Below, in pieces: positions 9,226 through 60,429 of a stretch of 64,000 nt of DNA. The notes below the pieces were generated by a model. It saw nothing but the letters and a program-made list of their open reading frames with translations. It was not told the origin of the DNA and made no database searches. This DNA comes from an archaeon. GTDB taxonomy: Archaea; Thermoproteota; Nitrososphaeria; Nitrososphaerales; UBA183. A program made the translations under genes and the position numbers. Position 1 is the first letter of the stretch; every line of letters starts with the position of its first letter. The stretch covers positions 62,001-126,000 of the forward strand of contig JAKASI010000003.1 in assembly GCA_021828185.1 (NCBI GenBank), read 5' to 3'.

Positions 9226-9420
9226 AGGCTTCGAGCCCTCGGCGTAGACCAGGCTGACACGGGTCTGGTTCGAGCACTTCGTACACTTCGCCCCTTCCTT
9301 GGTGACGTAGTCTCCGACCGCGAAGGCCCTCTTGGTCTTCTGACCGCAGGCGGGGCACTCTTCGATGGTGTATACTAGGAGCTTCGTCTTCTTGTCTGGC
9401 CCGGGGACCGAACTCATCAT
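9214..9420 (-). CDS. Small zinc-ribbon protein, unknown
   Basis: The protein has 68 aa with two CxxC knuckles (CPACGQK at about residues 22-28 and CTKCSNQ at about 47-53), a four-cysteine zinc ribbon. Its start overlaps the stop of the DUF1512 gene as ATGA, so the two are coupled. I cannot name a family. Small zinc ribbons of this kind often bind nucleic acid or associate with transcription or translation complexes, but nothing here shows which. Confidence 0.75.
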   Translation of the reverse strand: MMSSVPGPDKKTKLLVYTIEECPACGQKTKRAFAVGDYVTKEGAKCTKCSNQTRVSLVYAEGSKPSGK

Positions 9421-10538
9421 TGCGCGACACCGAGGGTGTTGCCGATACCAGCTACCACGACGTCGTCCCCCTCCTTCGTCTTCTCCTCTATGACCCGGTT
9501 CAGCACCTGGGCGACCTTGTCTGCGGCTTCGGCGATCTCCTTCCGCATGACCGTGATTGCCTCGAGGATGCTCTGTTTGACAAGGATGGCATAGAGGGGC
9601 GCCTTCACTTTTGTGGCCACCTCTTCGATCTGGAACTTCTCGACCCCGATCCCGCCTATGGCCGCGCCCACGCCTTCGGCAATCTCTCCGGTCTTCTCTC
9701 CCTCGAGCTTGAGGGCCGCATCGATCATCACGATGGCGCTCGGCTTGACCCCCATGTCATCAATTATCTTCTTCATTGCGACCCCCGGCTGCCCGACATA
9801 GGCCATGGGTCCGTCGGCCTTCAGCACGTACAGCTTCCTGCCCTTGTATTCAGTTATGGCCAAGACTGTGTCCTTCGCCACGACGCGCTTCTCCTGCCCG
9901 ACCATGAACCGCGAGACAACAATCGGCCCGATGCCGTCCCCGACAGGCTGTCCCACCTTGAAGGAGTCGACGGCGTTGAGCAGGGCGTCCGCCTCCTGGA
10001 TAATCTGCGGCATCAGCATCTGGAGCTGGATCAGGACGAAGTAGGAATTGGTCTTCTTGCCAAGGAGGTAGAAGTGCCTGACTATCTTGTGGATGGCGTT
10101 CAGCGACGTCGCCACCTCAAGGAGGTTCTCTGAAATCGACACCGTCACCGGGCTGTTCTGCCCCAGGAGCGCGCCGACCTCGGCCCTCACCCTGTCGTTG
10201 TTGGTGGTGACTATGTGGTCGATCTTGCCGATGATCCCTGCCGGGTCGGTGTCCACTGGCATTATCGTGACGTAGTCCAGGAACTGGTCGACACGCTGGG
10301 TCGGGTCGTTGGGCGCCTTGCCGACGTTGACCAGGTAGTCGATGGCTTCCTTCCTTGCCTTGTCCTTCATCCCCTTCAGCTTGGTGAGCCCCCTGTTGAT
10401 GTCGTTCAGGGCCAGGTAGGACTGAATCCTCGTCTGATAGAAGAAGGTGATGAGGATGAAGCCGATCCAGAAGACAGTGATGAGAGTCGAACTGGAGTCC
10501 GCCAGAGTCTGGAGCACGTTGGCCGTCAGTACAAACAT
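9417..10538 (-). CDS. DUF1512 family membrane-associated protein
   Basis: The 373-aa protein has one N-terminal transmembrane helix (about residues 16-36, LITVFWIGFILITFFYQTR) followed by a soluble domain. The text PVGDGIGPIVVSRFM and the downstream GKKLYVLKADGP-like stretch match my recollection of the archaeal DUF1512 family, conserved in several archaeal phyla but without known function. A TATA-like ACATTTAAG (minus strand, around 10571-10581) lies about 35 bp upstream. It is coupled to a zinc-ribbon gene downstream. Confidence 0.8.
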   Translation of the reverse strand: MFVLTANVLQTLADSSSTLITVFWIGFILITFFYQTRIQSYLALNDINRGLTKLKGMKDKARKEAIDYLVNVGKAPNDPTQRVDQFLDYVTIMPVDTDPAGIIGKIDHIVTTNNDRVRAEVGALLGQNSPVTVSISENLLEVATSLNAIHKIVRHFYLLGKKTNSYFVLIQLQMLMPQIIQEADALLNAVDSFKVGQPVGDGIGPIVVSRFMVGQEKRVVAKDTVLAITEYKGRKLYVLKADGPMAYVGQPGVAMKKIIDDMGVKPSAIVMIDAALKLEGEKTGEIAEGVGAAIGGIGVEKFQIEEVATKVKAPLYAILVKQSILEAITVMRKEIAEAADKVAQVLNRVIEEKTKEGDDVVVAGIGNTLGVAQ

Positions 10539-10618
10539 GAAGGTCCAAGAATCGCCGCCGCGCGCTCGGACTTAAATGTTCTGTAACAAATGAGACGGCA
10601 AACGCGGATTTTGAAGGT

Positions 10619-10748
10619 GCCAGCATCAGGGCTTCGCGAGGGCTCTCGCACCTCACTACCACCCTGACGACGCGCGGTTTGACTTCTTCCCCTCTCGCGA
10701 GTCTGGGATCGGAACGAGTCCAGGTCGGACCCGCGCGCTATGGCCGGC
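10619..10748 (-). rRNA. rrf: 5S ribosomal RNA, interrupted by a BHB intron
   Basis: The minus strand from 10748 reads GCCGGCCATAGCG and ends TGATGCTGGC at 10619. Helix I pairs GCCGGC with GCTGGC, helix II CGCGGGT with ACCGCGCG, and helix III CCTGG with CCCAG. GGTGGTAGTGAGG and GCGAGAGCCCTCGCGAAGCC form the helix IV/V arm typical of archaeal 5S. Between CCCAG and AAGTC lies a 17-nt insertion (10686-10702). Without it the RNA is 113 nt with the expected CCCAGAAGTCAA. Ends are accurate to a few bases. A TATA-like box lies about 28 bp upstream. No 16S or 23S gene is adjacent, as is common in this part of the archaea. Confidence 0.88.
10686..10702 (-). other. 17-nt BHB intron inside 5S rRNA
   Basis: The minus-strand context is TCCC-AGA-CTC-GCGA-GAG-GGGA-AGA. 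TCCC pairs with GGGA (4 bp), flanked by two 3-nt bulges (AGA and AGA) on opposite strands, and capped by a CTC/GAG stem with a GCGA tetraloop. This is the strict bulge-helix-bulge substrate of the archaeal tRNA splicing endonuclease. Cutting after the second base of each bulge removes exactly 17 nt and joins CCCAG to AAGTC, the canonical 5S sequence. Confidence 0.82.
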
Positions 10749-10772
10749 TGGGGGCGGGGGAAGTCGTTCGGT

Positions 10773-10782
10773 AGATTAACGT
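10773..10782 (-). promoter_or_regulatory. TATA-like box for 5S rRNA
   Basis: On the minus strand ACGTTAATCT lies about 28 bp upstream of the 5S 5' end, the standard archaeal spacing. On the other strand, TTTTTTAG at 10801-10808 is similarly placed for the Trm112 gene, so this is a divergent promoter region. Confidence 0.5.
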
Positions 10783-10830: not shown

Positions 10831-11100
10831 ATGCAAAGGAAGCTCCTCGACATCCTCGCCTGCCCCATAGACAAGCACTACCCGCTTGAAATGCTGGAAT
10901 TCAACGTGAAAGGGGACGTGGTCCTGGACGGGGTCCTGTCCTGCTCCCAGTGCGGGAGGTACTACCCGATCGTCGATGAAATCCCCGTGATGCTCCCGGA
11001 CAACCTCCGAAACAAGAAGGAAGATCTGGAGTTCCTCGAGAGATGGAAATCGAAGCTCCCGGACAGAGTGGTCCACGGAGGCAAGCCGTGGAGCCTCTAG
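10831..11100 (+). CDS. trm112: Trm112-family methyltransferase activator
   Basis: The 89-aa protein has the Trm112/YcaR zinc fold: LLDILACPIDK at the N-terminus (C11), then LSCSQCGRYYPIVDEIPVML with the CxxC pair and the characteristic YPI.dgIPvmL strand. In archaea and eukaryotes Trm112 is a small activating partner of several methyltransferases acting on tRNA, rRNA and release factor. A TATA box at 10801-10808 places the transcription start close to the ATG, suggesting a leaderless mRNA. Confidence 0.85.
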   Translation: MQRKLLDILACPIDKHYPLEMLEFNVKGDVVLDGVLSCSQCGRYYPIVDEIPVMLPDNLRNKKEDLEFLERWKSKLPDRVVHGGKPWSL

Positions 11101-11387: not shown

Positions 11388-12026
11388 TTGGCGAGCAGAT
11401 CTAGCGCTATTTTCTCTGCTGCAGTCCTTGTCACCCTGATTCTGGGCGCAGGGGGGGCTTCGGCGCAGACGGCCTACGCCCTGAAAGTGCAGACTGACCA
11501 GCAGTCGTATTTCGGAACCCAGCCCATCCTGATCTCAGGGAGCGTCACACCGGCGCCTGGCGCCTCAACGGGCGTTGTGTTTACCATAGTGAACCCCAGC
11601 GGAACGAAGCTAGGATACTGGAATGCAGACGTGAACGGGACGACAGGGGACTTCAGCTACTCCATTGTTGCCGGCGGGAGTTCCGCCTGGGTCGCGGGGA
11701 CTTACACGGTGAACGCCACATGGGGAGCCTACCCTCCGCAGGTCTACGCCCATTCAACCTTCAGCTGGTCTCCCACAGCGACCACGACCACAACTACCAC
11801 CACGACCACAGAAACGCCGACTACAACCACCACCACAACGCCATCAACGACCACTACCACAGCCGCCCCTTCTACGACGACCACTCCCAGCAGCAGCGGC
11901 GGGGGAATCCCGGAGTTCCCATTTCAGGCCGTTTCGGTGGGCATCCTCGTGGCCGTCGTAGTTGCAGGCTACCTCCTCGCGAAGAGGTCTTCACTGGCTG
12001 GGCGTCGTCTGCCGTCGCCTCGATGA
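11388..12026 (+). CDS. Cell-surface protein with PEF-type archaeosortase sorting signal
   Basis: The 212-aa protein has an N-terminal signal peptide (about residues 5-26, ending GGASA-QT) and an Ig-like beta domain (about 30-125). A Thr-rich stalk (130-168, almost only T/P/S/A) is probably O-glycosylated. The C-terminal tripartite signal is GGG-IPEFP (174-178), a membrane helix (about 180-198) and a basic tail. This architecture is that of archaeosortase substrates of the PEF type. The archaeosortase gene starts 13 bp downstream, so enzyme and substrate form one unit. The start is TTG. Confidence 0.8.
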   Translation: MASRSSAIFSAAVLVTLILGAGGASAQTAYALKVQTDQQSYFGTQPILISGSVTPAPGASTGVVFTIVNPSGTKLGYWNADVNGTTGDFSYSIVAGGSSAWVAGTYTVNATWGAYPPQVYAHSTFSWSPTATTTTTTTTTTETPTTTTTTTPSTTTTTAAPSTTTTPSSSGGGIPEFPFQAVSVGILVAVVVAGYLLAKRSSLAGRRLPSPR

Positions 12027-12039
12027 GACCTGCTGGTAG

Positions 12040-12942
12040 TTGAAAGCTAGACTTCGGTTTCTCGCGTGGCTGGGCGCAGGCACAGCGCTATCCGCGGTCA
12101 CCGCTCCCAACTTCATCCCCCTGTTCAGTCAGCTGCTGGGGGACCAGTTCGGGGACGTCTTCCCGGTCTTCCCGTTCGCTGCCCTGGTTGTTCTCATTAC
12201 CGCACTCCGGTGGAAGGAACTGGCCGAAGTCCTCGACTCGGAGGATGGGGCGAAGTCCGAATGGAGAACTCGGGCGTCTGGGGTCTCGACTCTCCTGGCC
12301 CTCCTGGTCCTTGAGCCGTTGACCGGTCAGACGGTCACGACCGCGGGGGTCGCTCTTGTCCTTACGTTCTACGCGGCTGCACTCGCCATCAATCCTCTGA
12401 CGAAGCGGCTCCTCCTCCCCTACGCCGCTGTGTTCGCAGCCGGAGTGGGGTCTCCTTCGGTGCTCCAGTGGGCCTTCGGAGAGCCCCTGGCGGTAGTCTC
12501 ATCCTGGCTCTCGGCCAAGCTCGTTGCCATTGTTGGGCTCCCTGTGGCCTGGGCAGGGACGCAGTTTCAGTTCGTATCCAGGTCCGGGGACGTCATCAGC
12601 AGCTTTGTCGCCCCCGGCTGCTCCAGCATAATCTCGGTGACGACGTTCCTGGGGCTGCTGGCGCTGATGCACCTTGACATGAGGAAGGAACTGCGGTCCA
12701 CCGCCCTGGTCGCAATCGCGGGGACCTGCATCCTCACGGTCTTGAACTCCGTCAGGATACTGGTGCTGATGTGGGTTGGATACGAGCAGGGAGCCGCAGC
12801 GTTCTGGGGAGTCCACAACTGGGTGGGGTACGTCCTCTTCCTCGCGTTCTACCTAGCGGTCCTCCCGGTCTACTCTAGGATGGGCGGGGGCGGAAGCGGC
12901 CCCTATTCCGTGAACACGGGGGTCCCGTACACTCCGTCATAG
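12040..12942 (+). CDS. Archaeosortase/exosortase family transpeptidase
   Basis: The 300-aa protein has about eight membrane helices. The three residues proposed as the exosortase/archaeosortase catalytic site are visible in order: Cys194 in APGCSSI, Arg239 in LNSVRILVLM and His259 in WGVHNWVGY. The family cleaves PEF/PGF-CTERM type C-terminal signals and transfers surface proteins to a lipid. The adjacent upstream gene encodes an IPEFP substrate, which strongly supports the assignment. The start is TTG 12040. The 3' end overlaps the convergent EndoQ gene by 40 bp. Confidence 0.85.
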   Translation: MKARLRFLAWLGAGTALSAVTAPNFIPLFSQLLGDQFGDVFPVFPFAALVVLITALRWKELAEVLDSEDGAKSEWRTRASGVSTLLALLVLEPLTGQTVTTAGVALVLTFYAAALAINPLTKRLLLPYAAVFAAGVGSPSVLQWAFGEPLAVVSSWLSAKLVAIVGLPVAWAGTQFQFVSRSGDVISSFVAPGCSSIISVTTFLGLLALMHLDMRKELRSTALVAIAGTCILTVLNSVRILVLMWVGYEQGAAAFWGVHNWVGYVLFLAFYLAVLPVYSRMGGGGSGPYSVNTGVPYTPS

Positions 12943-30790: not shown

Positions 30791-33613
30791 ATGCAGGCAT
30801 CGACCGAATACAAGACTAGGAGAGACAAGATCGATGTCCTCCTGCGTCAAGCGGGCTGGGATGTCGACAATCAGACAAAGGTCTACACAGAAGTAGACAC
30901 GAAGCAATCGGATTTCAAGAAGAGGATCTACAAGACCGTCAAGGATACTTTGAGAGACCCTGACATCGACGAAAAGGCATATGCAGACTATCTTCTGCTG
31001 GACGCTCACGGATCCCCATTAGCAGTCATAGAAGCAAAGAAGACCTCAAAGGATCCAATTCTCGGCCAGAAACAAGCAGAGGGCTATGCGGACGATATGA
31101 GACGACAGACAGGGAAAGACGTCTTCATTTTTCTGACCAATGGGTACGAAATCTGGTTCTGGAACAGGCCCTATGAAAATCCTCGCATGGTGAAGGGGTT
31201 CCACGGTATCGAGGCCCTGATGAGATTGAAGTACCAGAACGAGTTCAAGGAGAATTTCTCCGAAGCCCCGATCCAGAAAGAGATCATCGACAGGCCATAC
31301 CAGATTGAGTCGGTCAAACGGGTCCTCGAGGGAATAGAGAAAGGTAAGCGAAAGTTCCTAATCGTTCAGGCGACCGGCACGGGCAAGACCAGGGTTGCAA
31401 TGGCCCTGATTGACGTGCTGCTGAGAACAAACCGTGCCCAGAAGATTCTATTCCTTGCAGACAGGAAGGCCCTGCGGGACCAGGCATTCTCTGACGGATT
31501 CAAGGCCTACTTCCCGAACGAACTGAAGTCGAAGGTGTTCTCGGGGACCTTGAACAAGAATGCGAGACTCTACGCCTCCACGATCCAGACGTTCATGGAC
31601 TGCTACCAGCAGTTCTCGATAGGTGACTTCGACTTGATCATCTCCGACGAGTGCCACAGGTCCATCTACAACAAGTGGAAGGACGTGTTCACATACTTCG
31701 ACGCAGTCGAGGTCGGCCTTACAGCGACGCCCGCAGAGATCATAGAAAGGGACACGTTTCGTTTCTTTGACTGTTACAACAAGATTCCCACCTTCCTATA
31801 CAGCTACGACGACGCTGTGAAGGAGAAGTGGCTGGTCCCGTACAAGGTCTACATCACTCAAACTCACTTCCAGATAGTCGGGATCAAGCCTGGAGACGTC
31901 CCTACCGAAGCTAGGAAGGAGCTTCTGGAAAAGGGAGTCGAGCCTGACGACGTCGACTTCGAAGGAACTGACATCGAGAAGAAGGTCGTGGTCATAGGGA
32001 CCAATGAGGCTATCGTGAAGGAGTTCATGGAGAACTGCATCATGGACTCCACCGGGACACTGCCGGCCAAGTCCATCTTCTTCGCGATAACCAAGGAGCA
32101 TGCCAAGCGGCTGTGGGAGGCCTTCGAGAAGCTGTATCCGGAATACAAAGGTAAGCTCGCGCGGATAATCGTCTCTGAAGACCAGAGAGCACAGGAGATT
32201 CTGACCGACTTCAAGAAGGAGAACTGGCCGAGGGTCGCCATATCTGTAGACATGCTCGACACTGGCGTGGACATGCCCGAGGTCTGCAACCTAGTCTTCG
32301 CGAAGCCGGTATTTTCGAAAATCAGGTTCTGGCAGATGCTCGGGAGAGGGACCAGAATCGACGCCACCTGCAAGCACAAGGAGTGGCTCCCGAACGGGAG
32401 GAAGGACGAGTTTCTCGTTTTCGACTGCTGGAACGTCTTCGACTGGTTCGACATGCACCCAGAGGGAAGGGAGGCAAAGCCTGCGGAGGCGGTTCCTGCA
32501 AAGGTATTCCTGCTCCGACTGCAGGAGCTGAGCTACTTCCAGAAGAAGAAGGACGAGAGAGCGAATGGAGTCAGGGCCAGAATCTTGGAAGACATGAAGT
32601 TACTCCCGGTAGATTCCATAACTGTCAAAGAGCACCTGAGGGACGTGGAGCTCGCGAAGTCAACGAAGCTGTGGGATAGGGTCGGAGTCGACCCGATTGA
32701 GTTCCTGAAGGCCAAGATCACGCCCCTTATGAGGTACCAGCAGAACGTTGAACCCAACGAAGCTTCATTTGTTCAGAAGTGCGAGCAGCTCAGCGTGGCG
32801 GCCCTCACTGGAAACGAACCCGAAATCGATAGGCTGAAGGAATCAATTGGTGAGACTCTGAATTACCTGCCGCTTACGATCAAAGAGGTGAAGAAGAAGG
32901 AAGAACTATTGGACAAGGTCCTCGCCAAGTCATTCTGGAGTAATGTCTCTTATGAGGATGCCCAGATGCTGATGAGGGAATTCTCCCCCCTCATGAAGTA
33001 CAAGAGGACCGAACCCCGACCAAAGATAGTCCTCGACATAGACGACATCATCCAAAAGAGGGAGATAATCGAGTACGGCCCCATAACGTCGCCGAGGTCA
33101 GAATATGTCGAAGACTACAGACAGAAGGTAGAGAAGAAGATCAAGCAGTTGGCCGAGGAGCATCCGACGATTCAGAAGATCAAGCGAGACGAGGCGCTCA
33201 CCGAGCAGGACCTCAAGAACCTGGAGAAGACGCTCAATAGTCCTGAGCTATTCATAACTGAAGAGAATTTGCAGAGGGTCTACAGGCAGAGCGAGGGATC
33301 GCTCACCGAGTTTATCAAGAAAATTCTTGGTCTTTATGAGTTCCCGAACCCGCATGAGAGGATTCAAGAGGCTTTCAAAACCTTCATGATTGAGAAGAAT
33401 TACCTCAACGCCGACCAGGTCAATTTCCTCAGGACTATCCAAGGCTACTTCGCGAAGAAGCATCACGTAGAATACTCAGACTTGTTCGAACCGCCTTTCA
33501 CAAACTTCGGCCCGAAGGCTCCAATCCCACTAATGAAGAAGGAGGACGTGGACGAAGTGTTGAGCTTATGCAACGTCTTGGAGGCACAGATATTCAAGCA
33601 TGCTGAATCCTGA
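30791..33613 (+). CDS. hsdR: Type I restriction enzyme, HsdR (motor and nuclease) subunit
   Basis: The protein has 940 aa. The N-terminal nuclease shows ADYLLLDAHG and VIEAKK (D66, E81-x-K83). The SF2 translocase core shows ATGTGKTRVA (Walker A), SDECHRS (DECH box), GLTATP (motif III) and QMLGRGTRID (motif VI). A long helical C-terminal region binds the methylase. It cleaves unmodified DNA after ATP-driven translocation. Its 3' end overlaps hsdM by 14 bp. The complete hsdR-hsdM-hsdS set is on one strand and looks intact. Confidence 0.95.
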   Translation: MQASTEYKTRRDKIDVLLRQAGWDVDNQTKVYTEVDTKQSDFKKRIYKTVKDTLRDPDIDEKAYADYLLLDAHGSPLAVIEAKKTSKDPILGQKQAEGYADDMRRQTGKDVFIFLTNGYEIWFWNRPYENPRMVKGFHGIEALMRLKYQNEFKENFSEAPIQKEIIDRPYQIESVKRVLEGIEKGKRKFLIVQATGTGKTRVAMALIDVLLRTNRAQKILFLADRKALRDQAFSDGFKAYFPNELKSKVFSGTLNKNARLYASTIQTFMDCYQQFSIGDFDLIISDECHRSIYNKWKDVFTYFDAVEVGLTATPAEIIERDTFRFFDCYNKIPTFLYSYDDAVKEKWLVPYKVYITQTHFQIVGIKPGDVPTEARKELLEKGVEPDDVDFEGTDIEKKVVVIGTNEAIVKEFMENCIMDSTGTLPAKSIFFAITKEHAKRLWEAFEKLYPEYKGKLARIIVSEDQRAQEILTDFKKENWPRVAISVDMLDTGVDMPEVCNLVFAKPVFSKIRFWQMLGRGTRIDATCKHKEWLPNGRKDEFLVFDCWNVFDWFDMHPEGREAKPAEAVPAKVFLLRLQELSYFQKKKDERANGVRARILEDMKLLPVDSITVKEHLRDVELAKSTKLWDRVGVDPIEFLKAKITPLMRYQQNVEPNEASFVQKCEQLSVAALTGNEPEIDRLKESIGETLNYLPLTIKEVKKKEELLDKVLAKSFWSNVSYEDAQMLMREFSPLMKYKRTEPRPKIVLDIDDIIQKREIIEYGPITSPRSEYVEDYRQKVEKKIKQLAEEHPTIQKIKRDEALTEQDLKNLEKTLNSPELFITEENLQRVYRQSEGSLTEFIKKILGLYEFPNPHERIQEAFKTFMIEKNYLNADQVNFLRTIQGYFAKKHHVEYSDLFEPPFTNFGPKAPIPLMKKEDVDEVLSLCNVLEAQIFKHAES

Positions 33614-35078
33614 ACTAAAGTCGAAGATCAACAAGCTCTGGGACGCGTTCTGGGCAGGGGGCCTAAGCAACCCACTTACCGCGATAGAGCAGATTTCGTA
33701 TCTCATCTTCATGAAGCGACTAGACGATCTCGATACTCATCACGTGGACGCTGCGAAAGCAAGGAACCAAACGTACAGGTCTCTTTTCGAAGGTCGGGAG
33801 AACTGTCGGTGGTCGAAATGGAAGCACATGAATGCGGAAGCGATGTTCAAGCACATGAACGAGGTCGTTTTCCCATTCATCAAGAACCTGCACAACGGTG
33901 AGGAAGTACTCTATTCGAGATACATGAAAGATGCCACTTTCATGATTCCAAAGCCGTCCCTGCTCCAGGAGGCAGTCGTTCTAATTGACGAGATAGAGAT
34001 TGGCGAAAGACCAGATATCCAAGGCGACATCTACGAGCATCTTCTTGGAGAGCTGAAGACCGCAGGGAAGAACGGGCAATTCAGGACACCAAGGCACATA
34101 ATCAGGATGATGGTCGAACTCATCGACCCTGACATCGGCGACAAGATTTGTGATCCTGCTTGTGGAACTGGAGGGTTTCTAGTGGGCGCATACCAGCACA
34201 TCCTGAAGAAGTACACCAGCCCAGAAATGGTCAAGATTGACGATGACGGGACGCCCCACGGACTGATTGGCGACAAGATAGTCAAGAAAGAGCATTGGAA
34301 CATTCTATGGACCGAGACCTTCTACGGCTTCGACTTCGAAGTAACAATGATTCGCATCGCCCTGATGAACATGATTCTGCACGGAATCACCGAGCCGAAC
34401 ATCGAACAGAGGGACACCCTGTCCAAGGGGTTTGAGCAGACACCAGTCTACGATATTGTCTTCGCGAATCCACCCTTCGCTGGATACGTAGACAAGAGCG
34501 ATATCAACGATAACTTCAGGATTGACACGACCAAGACAGAGCTCCTCTTCCTGGAACTCTTCTACAACTTACTCACGACGGGAGGCAGGGCTGCGGTAAT
34601 CGTTCCAAACGGCGTGCTTTTTGGTTCTTCAAACGCTCACATCAAAGCGAGGAGACTCCTGCTTGAGAATTGTGACCTCCAGGGTGTAATATCAATGCCT
34701 TCAGGAGTCTTCCAACCATATTCGGGGGTTGGAACTGCGGTGCTGGTCTTCATCAAAGGTGGCCAAACCGAAAAGGTTTGGTTTTACGAGATGAAGGCTG
34801 ACGGTTACAGTTTAGACCAGAAGCGCGATTTCATCGATGGTAAGGGAGACATCCCAGCCTTAATTGAGAAGTTTGAGAGAAGGGCTCAGTCAGATCACAG
34901 CGTTCTTGTCCCTATTGAGACAATCAAGAAGAACGATTACAATCTATCAATCTCCAGATACAAACAGGGTGAGCGTGAGAAAATTGAATCCGAAGAGCCG
35001 AATGTCCTAATCGAAAAGATAACGCAACTGGAAGAAGAGATTGCGAAGGAACTTGAGGAACTGAAATCGATGATATGA
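33600..35078 (+). CDS. hsdM: Type I restriction enzyme, HsdM DNA methyltransferase subunit
   Basis: The 492-aa protein has an N-terminal helical HsdM domain, then SAM motif I CDPACGTGGFLVGAY and the N6-adenine catalytic motif ANPPF. It methylates adenine in the sequence chosen by HsdS, and with two HsdS-bound copies forms the trimeric methylase. It overlaps hsdR, and hsdS starts at the next base after its stop. Confidence 0.95.
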   Translation: MLNPELKSKINKLWDAFWAGGLSNPLTAIEQISYLIFMKRLDDLDTHHVDAAKARNQTYRSLFEGRENCRWSKWKHMNAEAMFKHMNEVVFPFIKNLHNGEEVLYSRYMKDATFMIPKPSLLQEAVVLIDEIEIGERPDIQGDIYEHLLGELKTAGKNGQFRTPRHIIRMMVELIDPDIGDKICDPACGTGGFLVGAYQHILKKYTSPEMVKIDDDGTPHGLIGDKIVKKEHWNILWTETFYGFDFEVTMIRIALMNMILHGITEPNIEQRDTLSKGFEQTPVYDIVFANPPFAGYVDKSDINDNFRIDTTKTELLFLELFYNLLTTGGRAAVIVPNGVLFGSSNAHIKARRLLLENCDLQGVISMPSGVFQPYSGVGTAVLVFIKGGQTEKVWFYEMKADGYSLDQKRDFIDGKGDIPALIEKFERRAQSDHSVLVPIETIKKNDYNLSISRYKQGEREKIESEEPNVLIEKITQLEEEIAKELEELKSMI

Positions 35079-36185
35079 ATGTCAAATGAGTGGATTAGTG
35101 AACCGCTAGCCGAAATCGCTGAGGTTTTGATGGGCCAATCGCCTCCTTCGTCTACATACAATGAGGAAGGAAAGGGGTTGCCATTCTTTCAAGGCAAGGC
35201 AGAATTCGGCGAAATCTATCCTGTTGCTGCAAAGTATTGCTCTAGGCCCCTAAGAGTTGCTGCATTGAACGATATACTGTTGAGTGTGAGGGCCCCAGTT
35301 GGTCCGGTAAACCTCAGTCCTTCACAATGCTGTATCGGGAGGGGGCTCTCCGCAATCCGCGGGAAACAGCCCAAGGTGGACCAGATGTATCTCTTCTATT
35401 ACCTGCGTTCCATTGAAACGAGGCTGTCTGAACGGGGACAGGGAAGCACTTTCGGGGCCATCGGCCGAAAAGACCTCGAAAGAATTGAGGTCCCCCATCC
35501 AATTAGCCTTGATGTCCAGCATCGAATAGCTTCAGTCCTTCACAAAGCCCATGGCATTGCTCAGAAGCGCGAAGAAACCAACCAACTCACGAAAAAGACC
35601 ATGGGGTCAGTTTTTCTGAAGATGTTTGGAGACCCCGATGTCAATCCGATTGGGTGGAAAATCAATGAGTTAGGGGAATTAACAACTTGTTTGGATCATC
35701 GACGAGTCCCAATAAAGGAATCAGAACGAGAAATCGGTGACACGCCATATTATGGTGCAAATGGTAGGGTAGGATGGATAAAGGGTTTCATTTTTGACGA
35801 GCCCCTTCTCTTGTTAGCAGAAGATGGCGGGAACTGGAGTAAATTTCAGAAATCAGCCTACCGAATCAGAGGAAAAAGTTGGGTCAATAATCACGCCCAT
35901 GTTCTCAAGGAAAATGGCAGAGCCTGCCTTGAATTCTTGGAAAGTTGCCTCGACCTTAGCGATTTGACCAGGTATATCTCGGGTACAACAAGGGGCAAAC
36001 TAACAAGGGGGATGATGGACAAGATCAAGATTCCTACCCCCCCAATTGATTTGCAAGAACGATTTGTGCGAATAGCAAAGAAACTCGAAGCGCTTCAACA
36101 GCTGCAGAAGGAGGACACGCAAGAAATCGACGAACTCTTTCACTCCCTGATGCACAAAGCTTTCTCAGGAAAGCTGGTGGAGTGA
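35079..36185 (+). CDS. hsdS: Type I restriction enzyme, HsdS specificity subunit
   Basis: The 368-aa protein has two target-recognition domains separated and followed by conserved coiled-coil spacers: LDVQHRIASVLHKAHGIAQK after TRD1 and IDLQERFVRIAKKLEALQQL after TRD2. A bipartite recognition site is therefore expected. TRD1 begins near ISEPLAEIAEVLMGQSPPS and TRD2 near IGWKINELGELTTC. The TRD region is noticeably more AT-rich than hsdR, as usual for exchanged recognition domains. Confidence 0.92.
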   Translation: MSNEWISEPLAEIAEVLMGQSPPSSTYNEEGKGLPFFQGKAEFGEIYPVAAKYCSRPLRVAALNDILLSVRAPVGPVNLSPSQCCIGRGLSAIRGKQPKVDQMYLFYYLRSIETRLSERGQGSTFGAIGRKDLERIEVPHPISLDVQHRIASVLHKAHGIAQKREETNQLTKKTMGSVFLKMFGDPDVNPIGWKINELGELTTCLDHRRVPIKESEREIGDTPYYGANGRVGWIKGFIFDEPLLLLAEDGGNWSKFQKSAYRIRGKSWVNNHAHVLKENGRACLEFLESCLDLSDLTRYISGTTRGKLTRGMMDKIKIPTPPIDLQERFVRIAKKLEALQQLQKEDTQEIDELFHSLMHKAFSGKLVE

Positions 36186-54420: not shown

Positions 54421-57400
54421 CTATCCCGCCTCTTGGATCCTACCCCTAGGTGAGGTCCTTCTCCGCACCAGGACAAAGATTCCTGCGACCAAAGCCACGA
54501 CCAAAGCCACCGCCAAAGCACCCGCCAGGATATAGGTCAGGGGGACTCCCCCTGAAGGCGAAGTCGTGCCGGTTCGCGAAATAGTCGTGGTGTTAACCGA
54601 CGTGGGGGCGAAGGCGACGGATACTTGCGCATTGCTCCCGTCTATGGTAACTTTCCCGGCTGCAGGCGAAGCAGCGTAGCCCGACCCTGGTTCGACGGAG
54701 TACGGATAGGTCCCATTGCCCGGGGTGCTGAAGACGACCCGGTTCGACGTCGACGACACTGTCGACCCGTTGAAATCCACCGCCCAGGACCCTCCTGAAG
54801 AGAGCCCCGACTCTGCGAACGTTACGGTGTAGCCGGCGGCCGGCAGTATGCCCTCGGCGGCACCGCCTGGAACACCGAGCGCCTGCACCTCTACAGTGAA
54901 AGGCGTGAGTTTCTCCGAGAAGTAAGAAACGTTCGATGAAAACAGGGTAGAGTTCACCGCATGCATTTGATAGACCGTGTTGTTGAGAGTTAATGTCGCT
55001 GCCGAGGCCGTCACTTTGGTCCCGTTACTGAGGTAAGGCGTCATCAATACTGTGTAGTTCCCGCCGACACCCTCTGTGGTGATCCTAGGCTCTAAAAAGA
55101 TAGGCTGAATCAGCGTTCCGTTTTGTGAATAGTCGATTGCAATCGTCGTCAGAGTGCCCGTTTCGATCTCGCCGGAAAGGGCAGGGTGCACATAGGTGGG
55201 GGCGGTTGGGTAGACATCAACGGTGTACGGAACAGTGGCGTTGTTCGTACCCACGGTCCCCAGGACCAGGGTAAGGTTCTGTTTACCAAGGAAATACGTA
55301 TAGTAGAAATCTTCGCCGCCTACGATGAAACCCGCACTGCTATTATAGACCATGGTGCCCGTCGTCGGATCGTATCCAAGGACCAGCGTCCCGTTGGCAG
55401 CGTAGTAAGAAGGAGCCTCAGAGACGCCGTTTGGGTCCGCGGCGAGGAGAGAGCCCACGGCGGCAACGGCGGTCGTAACGTCCCTAATGACTGTGAGCGT
55501 GTTGCAGGTGCCTTGTATCTTTGATTCGTCTGGGTTCAGGGAAGTGCAGAGAACCAGGTTTACGACGTTGAGGCCGAAATTGAAGAAGTCGGCGAGAGTC
55601 TTGATGACCTCGCCTACCGCCTGGACATCCCAGGCCAAGACCATGCTCCAGAGTTTGATGATGTCCAGCATCAGGGACACCGAGGCGGTTAAGACGGCTA
55701 CTATCGCATTGAATAGCTGGGTGTCCTTCAAGATTAGGACGAAGTCCAGCAGAGTGGCCGCTGCGAGCTGCCCCGATGCGCCGATGTCCGAGATTGCGCC
55801 CAGGGTGATGTCACCGGTGAGGTCGGTGAGATACTTCAGCAGCGCAGACCAGAAGCCAACCGAACCTGTCCCGGTGTTGGAAACAGAGGTTATCCCCTCC
55901 CAACTCAAACTGCAGTTAGTTGGACTCGGCTTGATTAGACAGAGGAGCGCGGGACCAAGGATCCCGGCGATTCCTGAAAGCAGCTTGGCTCCATAGGTGG
56001 CGTAGTCAAGCCCAGAATTCACCTGTCCCACCGGGATACTATCGATATCAACGAGATTGACGCTACCCTCCCCCGGTACTCCGGGGAGCCCCATCACGAG
56101 GCTGAGAACACTGATGGGAAGGTGGACTAGCGTGACTGAGGCCGATAGGTAACCTGAAGGCGCACCTATCCCGAGGTCGTTGATTACGCTCTTGTTGTAC
56201 TCCTGAGCTGAAACGCCGCTCGCTGGGTTGATGGTGTAAATAATCACGCTCTCCGTTTGAGAATTGGCGAAGAGGAGAGGCGCAGCGGCCGGGGCGAGAG
56301 CGCCACCGCTCACCGCCGTGACGACGCCAGCCATTGCCTGCGGAGAGATCGAGACCGTGTTAATGTTGAAGTTGGGGTCATTGGCCCACAAAGGCTCGGG
56401 CTGTGGAACGACGAGCAGGCTCACGAGGCAGTCCGAGACTTCCGCCGAATTTGCCGTGCACTCCCCCGGTGTGACGGTGTAGGCGCCGTTCCGGCCCCCC
56501 AAAGCGACGTTGCCAGTGGCTGTCGCGCAAGGGGTCCCCCAGAGCTTGACGCATTGGGCATCATCGGCGAGCAATCCTACCGGGAGGGAATCGTTGAGTT
56601 GATAGGTCGAGTACGGCAAGTAAAGGGTGTTCTCCACCCCATCCTTTAGGTAGAGAGTGTCCTTATCGAGTGTGGCCCAGATGTTGAATCCGCGGCAAAT
56701 TGACTGTGCGAAGCTGGGAAGTAAGCTGCAGTCGAGGGAGAAGCTAAACGATACAGGAGTGGTCGGGAACACCAGGTAACTTATCCCCCTCCCGGTCCCG
56801 CCGCTAGAAGTCATGGAAGTCCAGGTCATACCCACCGTGGCGGTGCCGTTGTAGAAGCCGATGCCGTCGACGGTGCCCGACCCCATGGTGACGTTGACGA
56901 GGCCGGCCCCGACAGGCCTCTGCATCCCATATCCGTTTATCACTGTCGCGTAGTCGGTGCCGTTGAAGATGACGAACGCGTCTTCAGCCCCTGGCGTGGC
57001 GTCCCACGACAGGTACTTCTGCCAGGCATCCAAGTTCGGTGATGCTGTCATGGGCTCGGTGGTCGCAATGCCCACGGGGTTTCCAGCCACAGCCACCGAC
57101 GGGCAGGATTGGCTGCAACTGTTCAGGTCCGGGGGCTGTATGCTGTTCCCCCCGCCTGATTGGTCTGACGGGACCACAGTTACGCTGTCGGACATCGAGT
57201 TGGCCACGAGAAGGTTGCTGGCTTCGTCGGTGACAAGGCCCATCGGCCCAGCGCCGACTGTTATGGACCCTTGCGATATCAGTCCGCCGAACAGGTAATT
57301 GAAGTAGTCCACAGAGGAACTGTCGTAATCAGAAACGTAAACTGCATCGCCGTAGGCCTCGACCGCCACCCCCGTGGGGTGGAAACTGAGAGGTTGGAAG

Positions 57401-60400
57401 CTGACCGTAGCCGTTACCTCGTTGGCGAGCTGGGCGGCACTGGAGTACTTCAGGGCGATTACAGCGATGTCCTCCGAGAGGAAGTCGGTGACGTACGCGA
57501 CATCCTGGGTGCTGCTGAGCTTCTGGACGGCGATCCCCAGCGGGGCGCTCCCGACCGCCACCGATTTCAGCAGCACCCCGGTTGAGGCGTCTACGATCGA
57601 GACGTTGTTCGCACCTTCGTTCACCACGAGGACCAGGTTCAGCGGGCCGATGGTAGCGTTTGCGAGGGACACGGGGTTGGGGTCGCATGTGCACGATGGG
57701 AGGTCGGCGGCGGATCCGAGGGACTGGCTGGTCGCCGCATCGAAGACGAACAGGCCATTCACCGCGGGGTTGACGGCGAACAAGTCCCCGTAGGCGGTTA
57801 TCACACCTTGGCCCACATTGAGCAGCATCGAAGAAAGCTTGACCGTGACGTCGTTCCCGCTAATCGAGACCACGCCGTCAGAAGGTTTGACGAAATACCC
57901 CGGAAGGCTGAGGGCGAAGGCGTAATTGCCGTCCGGGACGTAGAAAGCGGCAGTCCCGCTTGCGCGCTTTGCGGTACCGCACAGTGTCGAGAAACTCGGA
58001 GACCCCATGACACAGTTGGATGGATTCAAGGTGTCAAGGGAGGGGATTTCGTTGGCGCAATTCTTAGTGCCGCCGGGGACCAGCGTGTCAAGGCACTGGT
58101 TGATGGTGGCGGAGAGGCTCGCTCCATTCTGGGGGGGGTGTGCAAGCGCGAAGGAGAGCTTGAAAATCTGAGCGAAGACAACAGGGACGCCGTAACCCGT
58201 TTGGGGCAGCGCTACTGACCCTCCAAGGTAGACTTCCTGGCCCATGGTTGGATTGCCTGAGGTGGGGAGGTAGAACTGGGGTGAGTAAGCCTGGGGGAGG
58301 TAGTCGGGCGTCCCGTGGTAGAGTAGTTCGGGGACGGTATAGGAATAGGTATATCCTTCAGGCAGGACGAACGAGATCGGCGACGGGCTGTACGCAACCT
58401 GTGTGAACGACCTGGGCCGCGCGCCGCTGGTGCCTTGGCCCGAAAACGTCACAGTCACGTTCCATTTGATAGATGGACCCTCGAACCCAGGTTGGATACC
58501 CGTCTCTGTGAAGACCAGGTCCCGGGGGAGTCTCCCTGCAACGGTCGGGACACCTACGATGTATCCGCTCTCCATGGCGAAGTACATGACACCGTTCCAC
58601 GAATCGTACACAGCCGAATCGGGGCCGCATTCGGTCCCGAGGAGAACCGGGACGGCGCAGACCGAGATCTCCTCGGCAGACCCGGTCAATGGATTGTAAA
58701 CCACGATGCTGTTCCCACCAAACTGGGGCCTCGCCAGGCCGTAGATCTCATTGTTCCCCGGGTTGAAGAAAAGCTCATCCCCAAGGCCGCCTGTCAGATA
58801 GGTGGCGTTCCCCAGAGAGACACTGGACGTGTATTGGTCGGAAGTGCCGTTGATCACGAAGAGGGTGAGGGGGCTGGCGTTTGACTCCTCGGCGTAGAGC
58901 AGGTGGTTCGAGGAGTCGTACGCTGTGTTGTACGCCAGCTGGTTCGGGATGGTGATGTTACCCATCGGTTCCTCGGTGGCGGGGTCGATTACCGTGATGT
59001 TGTAGTAATTCGTGTTCGCGTACGATACGAAGAGTCTGTTGGAGTAGGAGTCGTACACCACGTCCGACGGGGCGCTTGGGAGGGTGATGTTGGCGACCAA
59101 GGCGTTGGTGGAAGTGTCCACGGCAAGGAGGGTCCCCGTGACGACATCGGTGATGTATAGATATCCGTTCGACGGGTCGAGGGCCATCCTCGGGCTATAG
59201 CCGCCCCCGTTCCCGCCCCCGTTCCCGATCCAGATCTTCCCGACATAGCTCAGACTCGATGCGTTGATGATGAGCGTCGAGTTCACGTATTCGCCGGTCA
59301 CGTACAGGAGGTTGTTCGACGGGTCGAAGACCATCGCGGTGGAATAAGGGAGGTACGCGTTGATCTGGGGGGAGGTGATGTTCGCCACAACTTTACCGGA
59401 CAGGTCATCAATCGCGCTGACGGTGGTGTTGCAGCAAGAGGGGAAGTCGGAAGAAACAGCGAAAACATAGCCGTTGTTGGGGTCGTACGCCATGGCCTGC
59501 TCGTCGCTCGCGTAGGCGTTCATGCACCCGAACGCCTGGTTAACGGTGGGGTTGTCCACGTAGGTCCGGAACTGCGCTGCCTGACCTGCGTACAGGGTAT
59601 CGTTGCAGAGGCTCTGGCTCGGGTCCGAGCCATAGGAGAGAGCGGAGGGGATCGAAAGCGGGGGACTTGGGCTAGCGGTAGGCTCGGACTTCGAGCGGGA
59701 GTACCTGCTCCCCACCCCTCGCGATGTGGGGGTGCCCAAGTAAGTCGTGGACACCATCGGCTCCAGCCCAAGCTCCGGGATGAGCCCGCGCATTCGATAT
59801 GCGAGGACGATGCTCCCGACCCTGACCGACTCGAACCCCGGCCTGAACAGAGGCGTAACCGACGCGCTCGCAGTCGCCCCTTTCAACTCAATCTGAATAG
59901 CTGGAGAAAAGGCAGATGAAATCAGGAGGAATGCTATTGGGAGGCTGATGGCTCGGACCCGGCCCGTCTCCCTCCTCGCCAGGTGATTCTTCGACCCTGA
60001 GTGGAAGCAGGACGAGACCTCTTTCCGACCTAGGTAGAAGGCGATTGTCAAGTTGGCCGCGAAAGCCGGGGCCGCGGAGTACACCCCACTTACGACCAGC
60101 AGACCATACACCGACGCGTTGGCGAAAGAGGCGAACAGAAAGACGGCCCACGACCAGCGCATCTCCTTCCACAAACCGACGGCCGTCGCCATCGTGACGA
60201 GAAAGACGAATGGAAGGAAGCCGCCCATGGAGAAGAAGAGCACGCCCGGCCCAACGATGCCGACGATTTCGAAGAGGGAGGTTGCCCCATTCCAACCCAG
60301 ACTCCCAAGAAGAGCGAGGGAGCCTGAGAAGGACAGAAGGAAGGCACACAGCGTCAGAGCCTGCGGTCTCCCCAAAAGGAGTGGGCCGCTGGACAGATTC

Positions 60401-60429
60401 GTACCTCGTGTGCGGCTATCTTCTACCAC
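54421..60429 (-). CDS. Giant membrane-anchored beta-propeller surface protein (2002 aa)
   Basis: The first about 140 residues hold four to five membrane helices. A second hydrophobic stretch (RVRAISLPIAFLLISSAFSP, near residue 165) looks like an independent signal peptide. YVTN-type propeller blades follow (about 300-620: YDPNNGYVFAVSSD, FDPSNNLLYVTGEY, YDSYSNRLFVSYAN), with a second propeller near 870-1120. Large Gly/Ser/Thr domains, a PEGA/Big-like segment before the C-terminus (VTFAESGLSSGGSWAVDFNG) and one final helix with an RRR tail complete it. Either two proteins have fused or the true start is the internal GTG before the second signal. Probably an adhesin or sensor. Confidence 0.8.
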   Translation of the reverse strand: MVEDSRTRGTNLSSGPLLLGRPQALTLCAFLLSFSGSLALLGSLGWNGATSLFEIVGIVGPGVLFFSMGGFLPFVFLVTMATAVGLWKEMRWSWAVFLFASFANASVYGLLVVSGVYSAAPAFAANLTIAFYLGRKEVSSCFHSGSKNHLARRETGRVRAISLPIAFLLISSAFSPAIQIELKGATASASVTPLFRPGFESVRVGSIVLAYRMRGLIPELGLEPMVSTTYLGTPTSRGVGSRYSRSKSEPTASPSPPLSIPSALSYGSDPSQSLCNDTLYAGQAAQFRTYVDNPTVNQAFGCMNAYASDEQAMAYDPNNGYVFAVSSDFPSCCNTTVSAIDDLSGKVVANITSPQINAYLPYSTAMVFDPSNNLLYVTGEYVNSTLIINASSLSYVGKIWIGNGGGNGGGYSPRMALDPSNGYLYITDVVTGTLLAVDTSTNALVANITLPSAPSDVVYDSYSNRLFVSYANTNYYNITVIDPATEEPMGNITIPNQLAYNTAYDSSNHLLYAEESNASPLTLFVINGTSDQYTSSVSLGNATYLTGGLGDELFFNPGNNEIYGLARPQFGGNSIVVYNPLTGSAEEISVCAVPVLLGTECGPDSAVYDSWNGVMYFAMESGYIVGVPTVAGRLPRDLVFTETGIQPGFEGPSIKWNVTVTFSGQGTSGARPRSFTQVAYSPSPISFVLPEGYTYSYTVPELLYHGTPDYLPQAYSPQFYLPTSGNPTMGQEVYLGGSVALPQTGYGVPVVFAQIFKLSFALAHPPQNGASLSATINQCLDTLVPGGTKNCANEIPSLDTLNPSNCVMGSPSFSTLCGTAKRASGTAAFYVPDGNYAFALSLPGYFVKPSDGVVSISGNDVTVKLSSMLLNVGQGVITAYGDLFAVNPAVNGLFVFDAATSQSLGSAADLPSCTCDPNPVSLANATIGPLNLVLVVNEGANNVSIVDASTGVLLKSVAVGSAPLGIAVQKLSSTQDVAYVTDFLSEDIAVIALKYSSAAQLANEVTATVSFQPLSFHPTGVAVEAYGDAVYVSDYDSSSVDYFNYLFGGLISQGSITVGAGPMGLVTDEASNLLVANSMSDSVTVVPSDQSGGGNSIQPPDLNSCSQSCPSVAVAGNPVGIATTEPMTASPNLDAWQKYLSWDATPGAEDAFVIFNGTDYATVINGYGMQRPVGAGLVNVTMGSGTVDGIGFYNGTATVGMTWTSMTSSGGTGRGISYLVFPTTPVSFSFSLDCSLLPSFAQSICRGFNIWATLDKDTLYLKDGVENTLYLPYSTYQLNDSLPVGLLADDAQCVKLWGTPCATATGNVALGGRNGAYTVTPGECTANSAEVSDCLVSLLVVPQPEPLWANDPNFNINTVSISPQAMAGVVTAVSGGALAPAAAPLLFANSQTESVIIYTINPASGVSAQEYNKSVINDLGIGAPSGYLSASVTLVHLPISVLSLVMGLPGVPGEGSVNLVDIDSIPVGQVNSGLDYATYGAKLLSGIAGILGPALLCLIKPSPTNCSLSWEGITSVSNTGTGSVGFWSALLKYLTDLTGDITLGAISDIGASGQLAAATLLDFVLILKDTQLFNAIVAVLTASVSLMLDIIKLWSMVLAWDVQAVGEVIKTLADFFNFGLNVVNLVLCTSLNPDESKIQGTCNTLTVIRDVTTAVAAVGSLLAADPNGVSEAPSYYAANGTLVLGYDPTTGTMVYNSSAGFIVGGEDFYYTYFLGKQNLTLVLGTVGTNNATVPYTVDVYPTAPTYVHPALSGEIETGTLTTIAIDYSQNGTLIQPIFLEPRITTEGVGGNYTVLMTPYLSNGTKVTASAATLTLNNTVYQMHAVNSTLFSSNVSYFSEKLTPFTVEVQALGVPGGAAEGILPAAGYTVTFAESGLSSGGSWAVDFNGSTVSSTSNRVVFSTPGNGTYPYSVEPGSGYAASPAAGKVTIDGSNAQVSVAFAPTSVNTTTISRTGTTSPSGGVPLTYILAGALAVALVVALVAGIFVLVRRRTSPRGRIQEAG

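Follow-up and report, generated by a model that had tools for sequence, protein, structure and literature searches.

Predicted bulge-helix-bulge introns at three sites in 5S rRNA genes of Thermoproteota

RESULTS

A 5S rRNA gene with a 17-nt insert

The stretch of DNA analyzed here, which we refer to as the window (64,000 nucleotides at its full length), carries a 5S rRNA gene on its minus strand. Rfam model RF00001 matches this gene at 10615-10751 (44.7 bits; model positions 1-120), an extent slightly wider than the 10619-10748 given in a sequence-only reading of the window, which had recognized the gene correctly. As that reading had also claimed, 17 extra bases sit between CCCAG and AAGTC on the minus strand, at 10702-10686; minus these bases, the gene is a normal 120-nt 5S rRNA gene. 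We refer to the position of this insert as site A, which, according to mapping done by hand, lies between the positions equivalent to Escherichia coli 51 and 52. The features of the locus are as follows, where BHB stands for bulge-helix-bulge.

10831-11100, divergent, upstream of the 5S rRNA gene: Trm112p-like gene
10771-10780, minus strand: TATA-like box (GTTAATCTAC) upstream of the 5S rRNA gene, based on a by-eye reading of 14 upstream sequences
10703-10751, minus strand: 5' exon of the 5S rRNA gene, based on the RF00001 match and an alignment with intron-free relatives
10705-10708, minus strand: 5' strand (TCCC) of central helix H, with its final two bases pairing in mature helix III as well
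10702-10704, minus strand: bulge 1 (AGA), with the predicted cut between 10703 and 10702
10686-10702, minus strand: 17-nt insert, predicted BHB intron (site A), based on its absence in close relatives and its geometry
10692-10701, minus strand: intron hairpin with a 3-bp stem (CTC/GAG, invariant in 14 of 14 sequences) and a variable 4-nt loop (here GCGA)
10688-10691, minus strand: 3' strand (GGGA) of central helix H
10685-10687, minus strand: bulge 2 (AGA), with the predicted cut between 10686 and 10685
10615-10685, minus strand: 3' exon of the 5S rRNA gene, based on the RF00001 match
9417-10538, minus strand: DUF1512 protein gene, based on Pfam PF07431/PF23542 and synteny

The 5S rRNA gene stands alone, with the DUF1512 gene 76 bases downstream, and no tRNA gene was found in the window using ARAGORN. 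By eye, A/T stretches resembling the TATA-like box are also present upstream of the 5S rRNA genes of insert-bearing relatives. Elsewhere in the window, a Thr-rich protein with a C-terminal IPEFPF motif and a hydrophobic tail is encoded at 11388-12942 beside a gene of the exosortase/archaeosortase family. A stretch of lower GC content at 30791-36185 encodes a 940-aa type I restriction R-subunit-like protein, an M-subunit-like methyltransferase scoring below curated cut-offs, and a third protein without an NCBIfam match, and a 2002-aa open frame at 54421-60429 has no Pfam match at an E value of 0.001.

All the elements that the sequence-only reading had listed for the insert and its flanks (a TCCC/GGGA helix, two AGA bulges, and a CTC-GCGA-GAG hairpin) were found letter for letter. 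Cutting within the bulges would restore an uninterrupted 5S sequence at the BHB register, as had been proposed, with the qualification that the insert edges are ambiguous by 3 nt because AGA is present at both ends; four registers yield the identical joined sequence, and the BHB register is one of these four. Shuffled versions of the insert reproduce the geometry in ~1 of 1,100 cases (0.00087). The same reading had called the motif exactly the substrate of the splicing endonuclease. This description needs a qualification: the second bulge has no directly flanking outer helix in the ordinary place, and the motif is therefore nearer to the relaxed HBh' form than to the canonical substrate. We note that the insert and the 17 bases preceding it (together 10686-10719) share their first five (ACTCG) and last two (AG) bases, which is possibly a trace of a tandem duplication, or chance.

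The site A insert is patchily distributed among relatives

To survey relatives, contigs were scanned with an alignment of 23 DUF1512 proteins, giving 34 loci. The DUF1512 proteins closest to that of the window are 94-95% identical to it, and one from Nitrososphaerota is 91% identical. At 26 of the 34 loci, a 5S match scored above the Rfam cut-off; a further four (L007, L019, L022, and L023) hold an insert-bearing 5S rRNA gene scoring below it, and at the remaining four no 5S rRNA gene was found near the DUF1512 gene. A 17-nt insert at the same site is present at six of these loci (L005, L007, L019, L022, L023, and L024). An order-wide search gave a 5S match in 360 of 400 genomes, and a closer look at 33 genomes (11 with weak matches, 2 with partial matches, and 20 of the 40 unmatched) added seven 137-nt 5S rRNA genes, all of them insert-bearing. 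In total, the site A insert was found in 13 genomes in addition to the window, in two families of one order and in 8 sequence variants. In the family of G007, it is present in 10 of the 39 genomes with a 5S match (46 genomes in all) and, in the family of G074, in 3 of 6 (7 genomes in all). Short or partial 5S sequences at L094-L097, L102, L106, and L107 contained no insert in the parts read, and L108 and L109 were left out of the insert reading.

The site A inserts follow the pattern ACTC-loop-GAGGGG-R-A-R. The stem CTC/GAG and the GGG are invariant, while the loop is GCGA, GCAA, GAAA, CAAA, or TTAG; the idea that it is always a GNRA loop was dropped after the TTAG and CAAA loops appeared. In L101 and L104, bulge 2 is AAA, a change on the intron side of the predicted cut that leaves the exon base in place. 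A pattern search of 398 genomes across the phylum, allowing up to 3 mismatches, gave hits in 5 genomes, comprising the known gene of G007 and four places outside 5S rRNA genes.

A comparison with relatives, which had been suggested as a check on the original observation, gave a clear outcome: close relatives cleanly lack the insert and others share it at the same site. The 5S rRNA genes of L019 and L020 are nearly identical except for the insert, and in agreement with the expectation that the 5S model should score higher without it, L019 (with the insert) scored 35.4 bits and L020 (without it) scored 63.2 bits. L001, the nearest neighbor of the window on the DUF1512 tree, also lacks the insert. 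On this 48-row tree, the insert requires at least seven changes, six of which are forced by well-supported branches; L027 as well as the insert-bearing L103 (partial DUF1512 match), L098, L100, and L101 are not on the tree. SubAcS15-57 (L002) and the insert-bearing SubAcS15-15 (L024) are both listed in a table of the paper on the Gagatemarchaeaceae (PMC10640624), based on which we place the window, with probability rather than certainty, in this family of soil archaea.

Two further insert sites in two other orders

A phylum-wide search of 398 genomes (374 with a 5S match), followed by a closer look at 35 genomes (22 whose matches were weaker or of odd length, and 13 of 24 without a match), identified two further insert sites in 5S rRNA genes, in two other orders. 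Site B lies in loop C between GTAC and CCGTT or CCATT; in the order of G434 (12 genomes, 10 of them with a 5S match), six genomes have inserts of 17-19 nt there. Site C, also in loop C, lies between CCGAA and CACGG; in the order of G586 (38 genomes, 29 of them with a 5S match), 11 genomes have inserts of 17-56 nt at this position (17, 20, 26, 28, 35, 36, and 56 nt). Site C falls within conserved CCGAAC, which we take to be near universal. All these insert counts, including those for site A, are lower bounds. Lengths in the order and phylum searches were given among the best ~150 matches listed, and inserts in genomes beyond these may therefore have been missed. Moreover, the insert-bearing G413, G427, G517, G696, and G720 were first passed over and recognized once their orders were searched, and others may therefore bear inserts. 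No insert was present in the parts read of short or partial 5S sequences at L144-L147, L152, L154, L156-L160, L162, and L166; L155, L161, L163-L165, and L167-L169 were left out of the insert reading, L169 being a weak second 5S match, at 20.6 bits, in G675, a site C genome.

The inner stems at site B change in compensation (GGG/CCC, GGA/TCC, and GGGG/CCCC). Those at site C differ among inserts (GCC/GGC, GCGAT/ATCGC, ACCCG/CGGGT, GTGA/TCAC, and a longer stem interrupted by an A.A mismatch), and in L195 and L196 a mismatch follows after only two inner-stem pairs. Once joined, the site C exons agree with the best intron-free relative at 107 to 121 of 122 positions. The central helix borrows bases from a strand of helix III at sites A and B. 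At site C, helix III as it stands (CCGT/ACGG) can act as an outer helix, which would complete a helix-bulge-helix-bulge-helix.

The DUF1512 protein of one member of the site C order resembles those of Bathyarchaeia (82%), and that of one member of the site B order resembles Thermoproteota/Nitrososphaerota proteins (82-90%), followed by Brockarchaeota (55%). Of 40 loci of roughly 3 kb from the site B and site C orders, insert-free ones included, 37 also contain a DUF1512 match. The pairing of this membrane-like protein gene with the 5S rRNA gene is conserved across distant Thermoproteota.

Inserts at all three sites share the BHB geometry

We scored 30 inserts (14 at site A, 5 at site B, and 11 at site C), representing 23 distinct sequences, by script. 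The exon ends in the scoring expressions were those of relatives lacking the insert, and the expressions for sites A and B additionally named some insert bases. In all 30, register 0 restores the uninterrupted sequence and leaves a 3-nt bulge on either side, the three bulge-proximal pairs of the central helix form, and no more than one of the first three inner-stem pairs is missing; a 31st insert, the sixth at site B (L151), fits by eye. The four-pair helix, allowing G.U, is complete in 16 of 16 inserts at sites B and C. Four of the 14 site A inserts, that of the window included, have four pairs, and the other 10 have three pairs and an A.G mismatch. The edges have a single placement in 15 of the 16 inserts at sites B and C; at site A, they are ambiguous by one or three bases. 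Shuffled inserts reach the observed match at frequencies of 0.00001-0.0098 each. When registers were scanned 12 positions either way, 9 of the 30 inserts also fitted one other register, which for 4 of these 9 (site A, register -1) gives the identical joined sequence. Covariation within the site A motif is almost nil (one pair, two cells), as six of its seven pairs are constant and the remaining one does not form in 10 of the 14 sequences. At all three sites, the insert is absent at the identical position in relatives.

Because the inserts fit the signal for cutting archaeal tRNA introns, we predict that they are spliced out. We consider it very probable that they constitute a family of BHB introns residing in the 5S rRNA of archaea. 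The predicted introns occur in this archaeon and 30 other genomes of the same phylum (Thermoproteota), each at one of three fixed places.

Predicted folding and the alternative of a retained segment

The predicted minimum-energy fold of the window precursor includes the BHB, as do those of two other site A precursors (3 of 14 in all). Across the 14, the probability of the central helix ranges from 0.01 to 0.88. In 6 of 14 (L007, L098-L101, and L105), helix III is more probable than the BHB, and L098 and L101 favor a third pairing. In 13 of the 14 site A precursors, all but L101, the ensemble energy was 0.1-3.5 kcal/mol lower with the BHB forced than with helix III and the hairpin forced. At site B, the probability of the BHB central helix is 0.20-0.33 in the five precursors computed, and helix III is kept. 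At site C, the BHB has a probability of at least 0.74 in 6 of 11 precursors, is near zero in L195, L196, and L198, and is low in L201 and L203. The energy predictions are thus mixed, favoring the BHB in only part of the sequences.

The higher probability of helix III in 6 of 14 site A precursors and its retention at site B speak for a rival explanation in which the insert is a retained expansion segment, i.e., a hairpin growing from the helix III bulge and kept in the ribosome, as in the 5S rRNAs of Halococcus or Thermoanaerobacterium. The positions agree with this explanation: by hand mapping, site A coincides with or adjoins the helix III bulge (52-53), site B is near positions 34-37 of loop C, and PMC7812874 describes 52-53 and 34-37 as the least obstructed sites in bacterial 5S rRNA and a 46-nt segment at the helix III bulge of a mature 5S rRNA. 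Also, 10 of the 14 site A inserts have a GNRA loop. Nevertheless, expansion segments lack noticeable complementarity to the core according to PMC7812874, in which the sole archaeal expansion site reported is at 104.1-105. By contrast, the GGG of the insert is complementary to exon CCC in 14 of 14 site A sequences, and all 16 inserts scored at sites B and C have four bases complementary to the exon. The 3-nt bulges at both junctions in all 30 inserts, the spread of lengths from 17 to 56 nt at a single site, and the location of site C inside a sequence that we presume to be close to universal likewise count against a retained segment. The checks proposed in the sequence-only reading would, taken alone, fit a retained segment too. 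What tips the balance toward a predicted intron is that independent inserts of the same architecture are present at two other 5S sites in other orders, with variable lengths (17-56 nt) at one of these sites. We therefore rank a retained segment as less likely than BHB introns and, overall, as improbable.

Splicing enzymes encoded by the insert-bearing genomes

In archaea, RtcB seals tRNA exons. An RtcB homolog is encoded in 13 of 13 site A genomes. The splicing-endonuclease family (PF01974) is represented in 11 of these 13 genomes, with two matches in 8 of them, and was not found in G023 and G147. G019, G022, and G024 have a single match, that of G024 without the DHAPY segment, and the second match in G081 is partial and contains a stop. 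In the six genomes for which both proteins were read, the DHAPY segment, which presumably holds the catalytic histidine, is present in one protein and absent in the other. This combination is as expected of alpha2beta2 enzymes. Enzymes of this type have been assigned to Thaumarchaeota and described as lenient (PMC4090602).

The BHB predicts cutting, and we infer ligation from the presence of RtcB. If the insert were cut out and the exons left unjoined, the result would be a two-piece 5S rRNA held together by pairing, in the manner of some bacterial 23S rRNAs. Given RtcB in every site A genome, we regard this outcome as very improbable and retain ligated exons as the preferred reading.

We made two further observations on splicing-related genes. 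RtcB is interrupted near profile position 50 in G012, G019, and G033 and also in G020, with the pieces ~1.5 kb apart; in G012, G019, and G033, a single open frame of 997-1007 aa spans both pieces, resembling an intein or another insertion in the ligase gene. Also, some DUF1512 loci, mostly insert-free, hold tRNA genes with long introns, and a tRNA-Trp-like match of 171 nt at L026 (2461-2631) by eye seemingly has a second insert near the T arm.

The insert-bearing genes resemble working 5S rRNA genes

Among the 14 insert-bearing site A genes, the mature helices are 98.6% paired (helix cells), and 15 pairs are changed on both sides. A second intact 5S rRNA gene, which the sequence-only reading had raised as an objection, was not found above the Rfam cut-off in the 13 site A genomes, whose assemblies are incomplete: as far as assembled, each has one archaeal 5S match, and the second match in G005 adjoins a bacterial 23S. 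The part of helix III shared with the BHB (CTGG with CCAG) is invariant among the 14 insert-bearing genes, while insert-free relatives at the equivalent place also have CCTGG, CCTAG, CCCGG, CTTAG, and CTTGG. Of the 48 tree rows, 43 were readable, and among these all 10 insert-bearing rows keep CCCAG|A, versus 13 of 33 insert-free rows; this trend was not significant when relatedness was controlled for (6 independent pairs, median p 0.25). By sequence, an insert-bearing 5S rRNA gene thus looks like a working gene. An assembly artifact or a decaying pseudogene is scarcely credible: most of the genomes are metagenome assemblies and possibly incomplete, but 14 sequences from separate genomes share the 17-nt insert, compensatory changes maintain their helices, and, for the 13 genomes, no second archaeal 5S rRNA gene came to light.

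DISCUSSION

Archaeal BHB introns are known in tRNA, 16S and 23S rRNA, and some mRNAs, and in tRNA introns the cut is made between the second and third bulge base. We propose that the 17-nt insert of the window is processed similarly. In the precursor, exon CCC, two bases of which come from the 3' strand of helix III, would pair with intron GGG, and this helix would be flanked by one 3-nt bulge on each side. The tRNA-splicing endonuclease would cut each bulge between its second and third bases, and RtcB would seal the exons to give a normal 120-nt 5S rRNA. The joined exons would then be free to form mature helix III (CTGG/CCAG).

More tentatively, 5S rRNA may be a spliced gene product in at least three orders of Thermoproteota, with three intron sites in the loop C-helix III arm, and the introns at sites A and B may hold the precursor away from its ribosomal shape, such that splicing would serve as a checkpoint for entry into the ribosome. 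We consider this broader proposal somewhat short of an even chance.

If the inserts are spliced, 5S rRNA would be a further substrate of the splicing endonuclease, its maturation would be tied to EndA and RtcB, and some "oversized" archaeal 5S rRNA genes would be explained. The insert-bearing and insert-free relatives would then also provide natural gain/loss pairs for studying how BHB introns arise and vanish. For annotation, the inserts already matter, as seven of the 13 site A 5S rRNA genes fall under the Rfam cut-off. The sequence-only reading knew of no described spliced 5S intron, and the literature searched, which most subscription journals lay outside, likewise gave no title or abstract opening reporting a 5S intron in archaea. 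PMC7812874 raises the possibility that unproven 5S expansion segments might be excised like introns.

The predicted introns resemble known archaeal BHB introns, including that in cbf5 mRNA (PMC2738675), in having a 4-bp helix between two 3-nt bulges, in exactly restoring the mature sequence, and in their patchy occurrence and length variation. They differ from known BHB introns in their host, 5S rRNA, and in the competition, at sites A and B, between their helix and a helix of mature 5S rRNA; at 17 nt, they are also short. Compared with the 5S expansion segments described in PMC7812874, they are likewise insertions in 5S rRNA within the range of 13-109 nt, with sites A and B falling on or close to permissive positions. 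Unlike those segments, which in archaea were described for Halobacteria at 104.1-105, they are complementary to the core, have BHB geometry, and lie at archaeal loop C and helix III sites. Sites A and B resemble the relaxed HBh' motifs of PMC4090602, cut by alpha2beta2 splicing endonucleases, in having a central helix, one bulge, and an inner helix but no clear outer helix. In keeping with such enzymes, six site A genomes carry two diverged proteins of the endonuclease family; the HBh' motifs presented there were described for tRNA, whereas those predicted here are in 5S rRNA.
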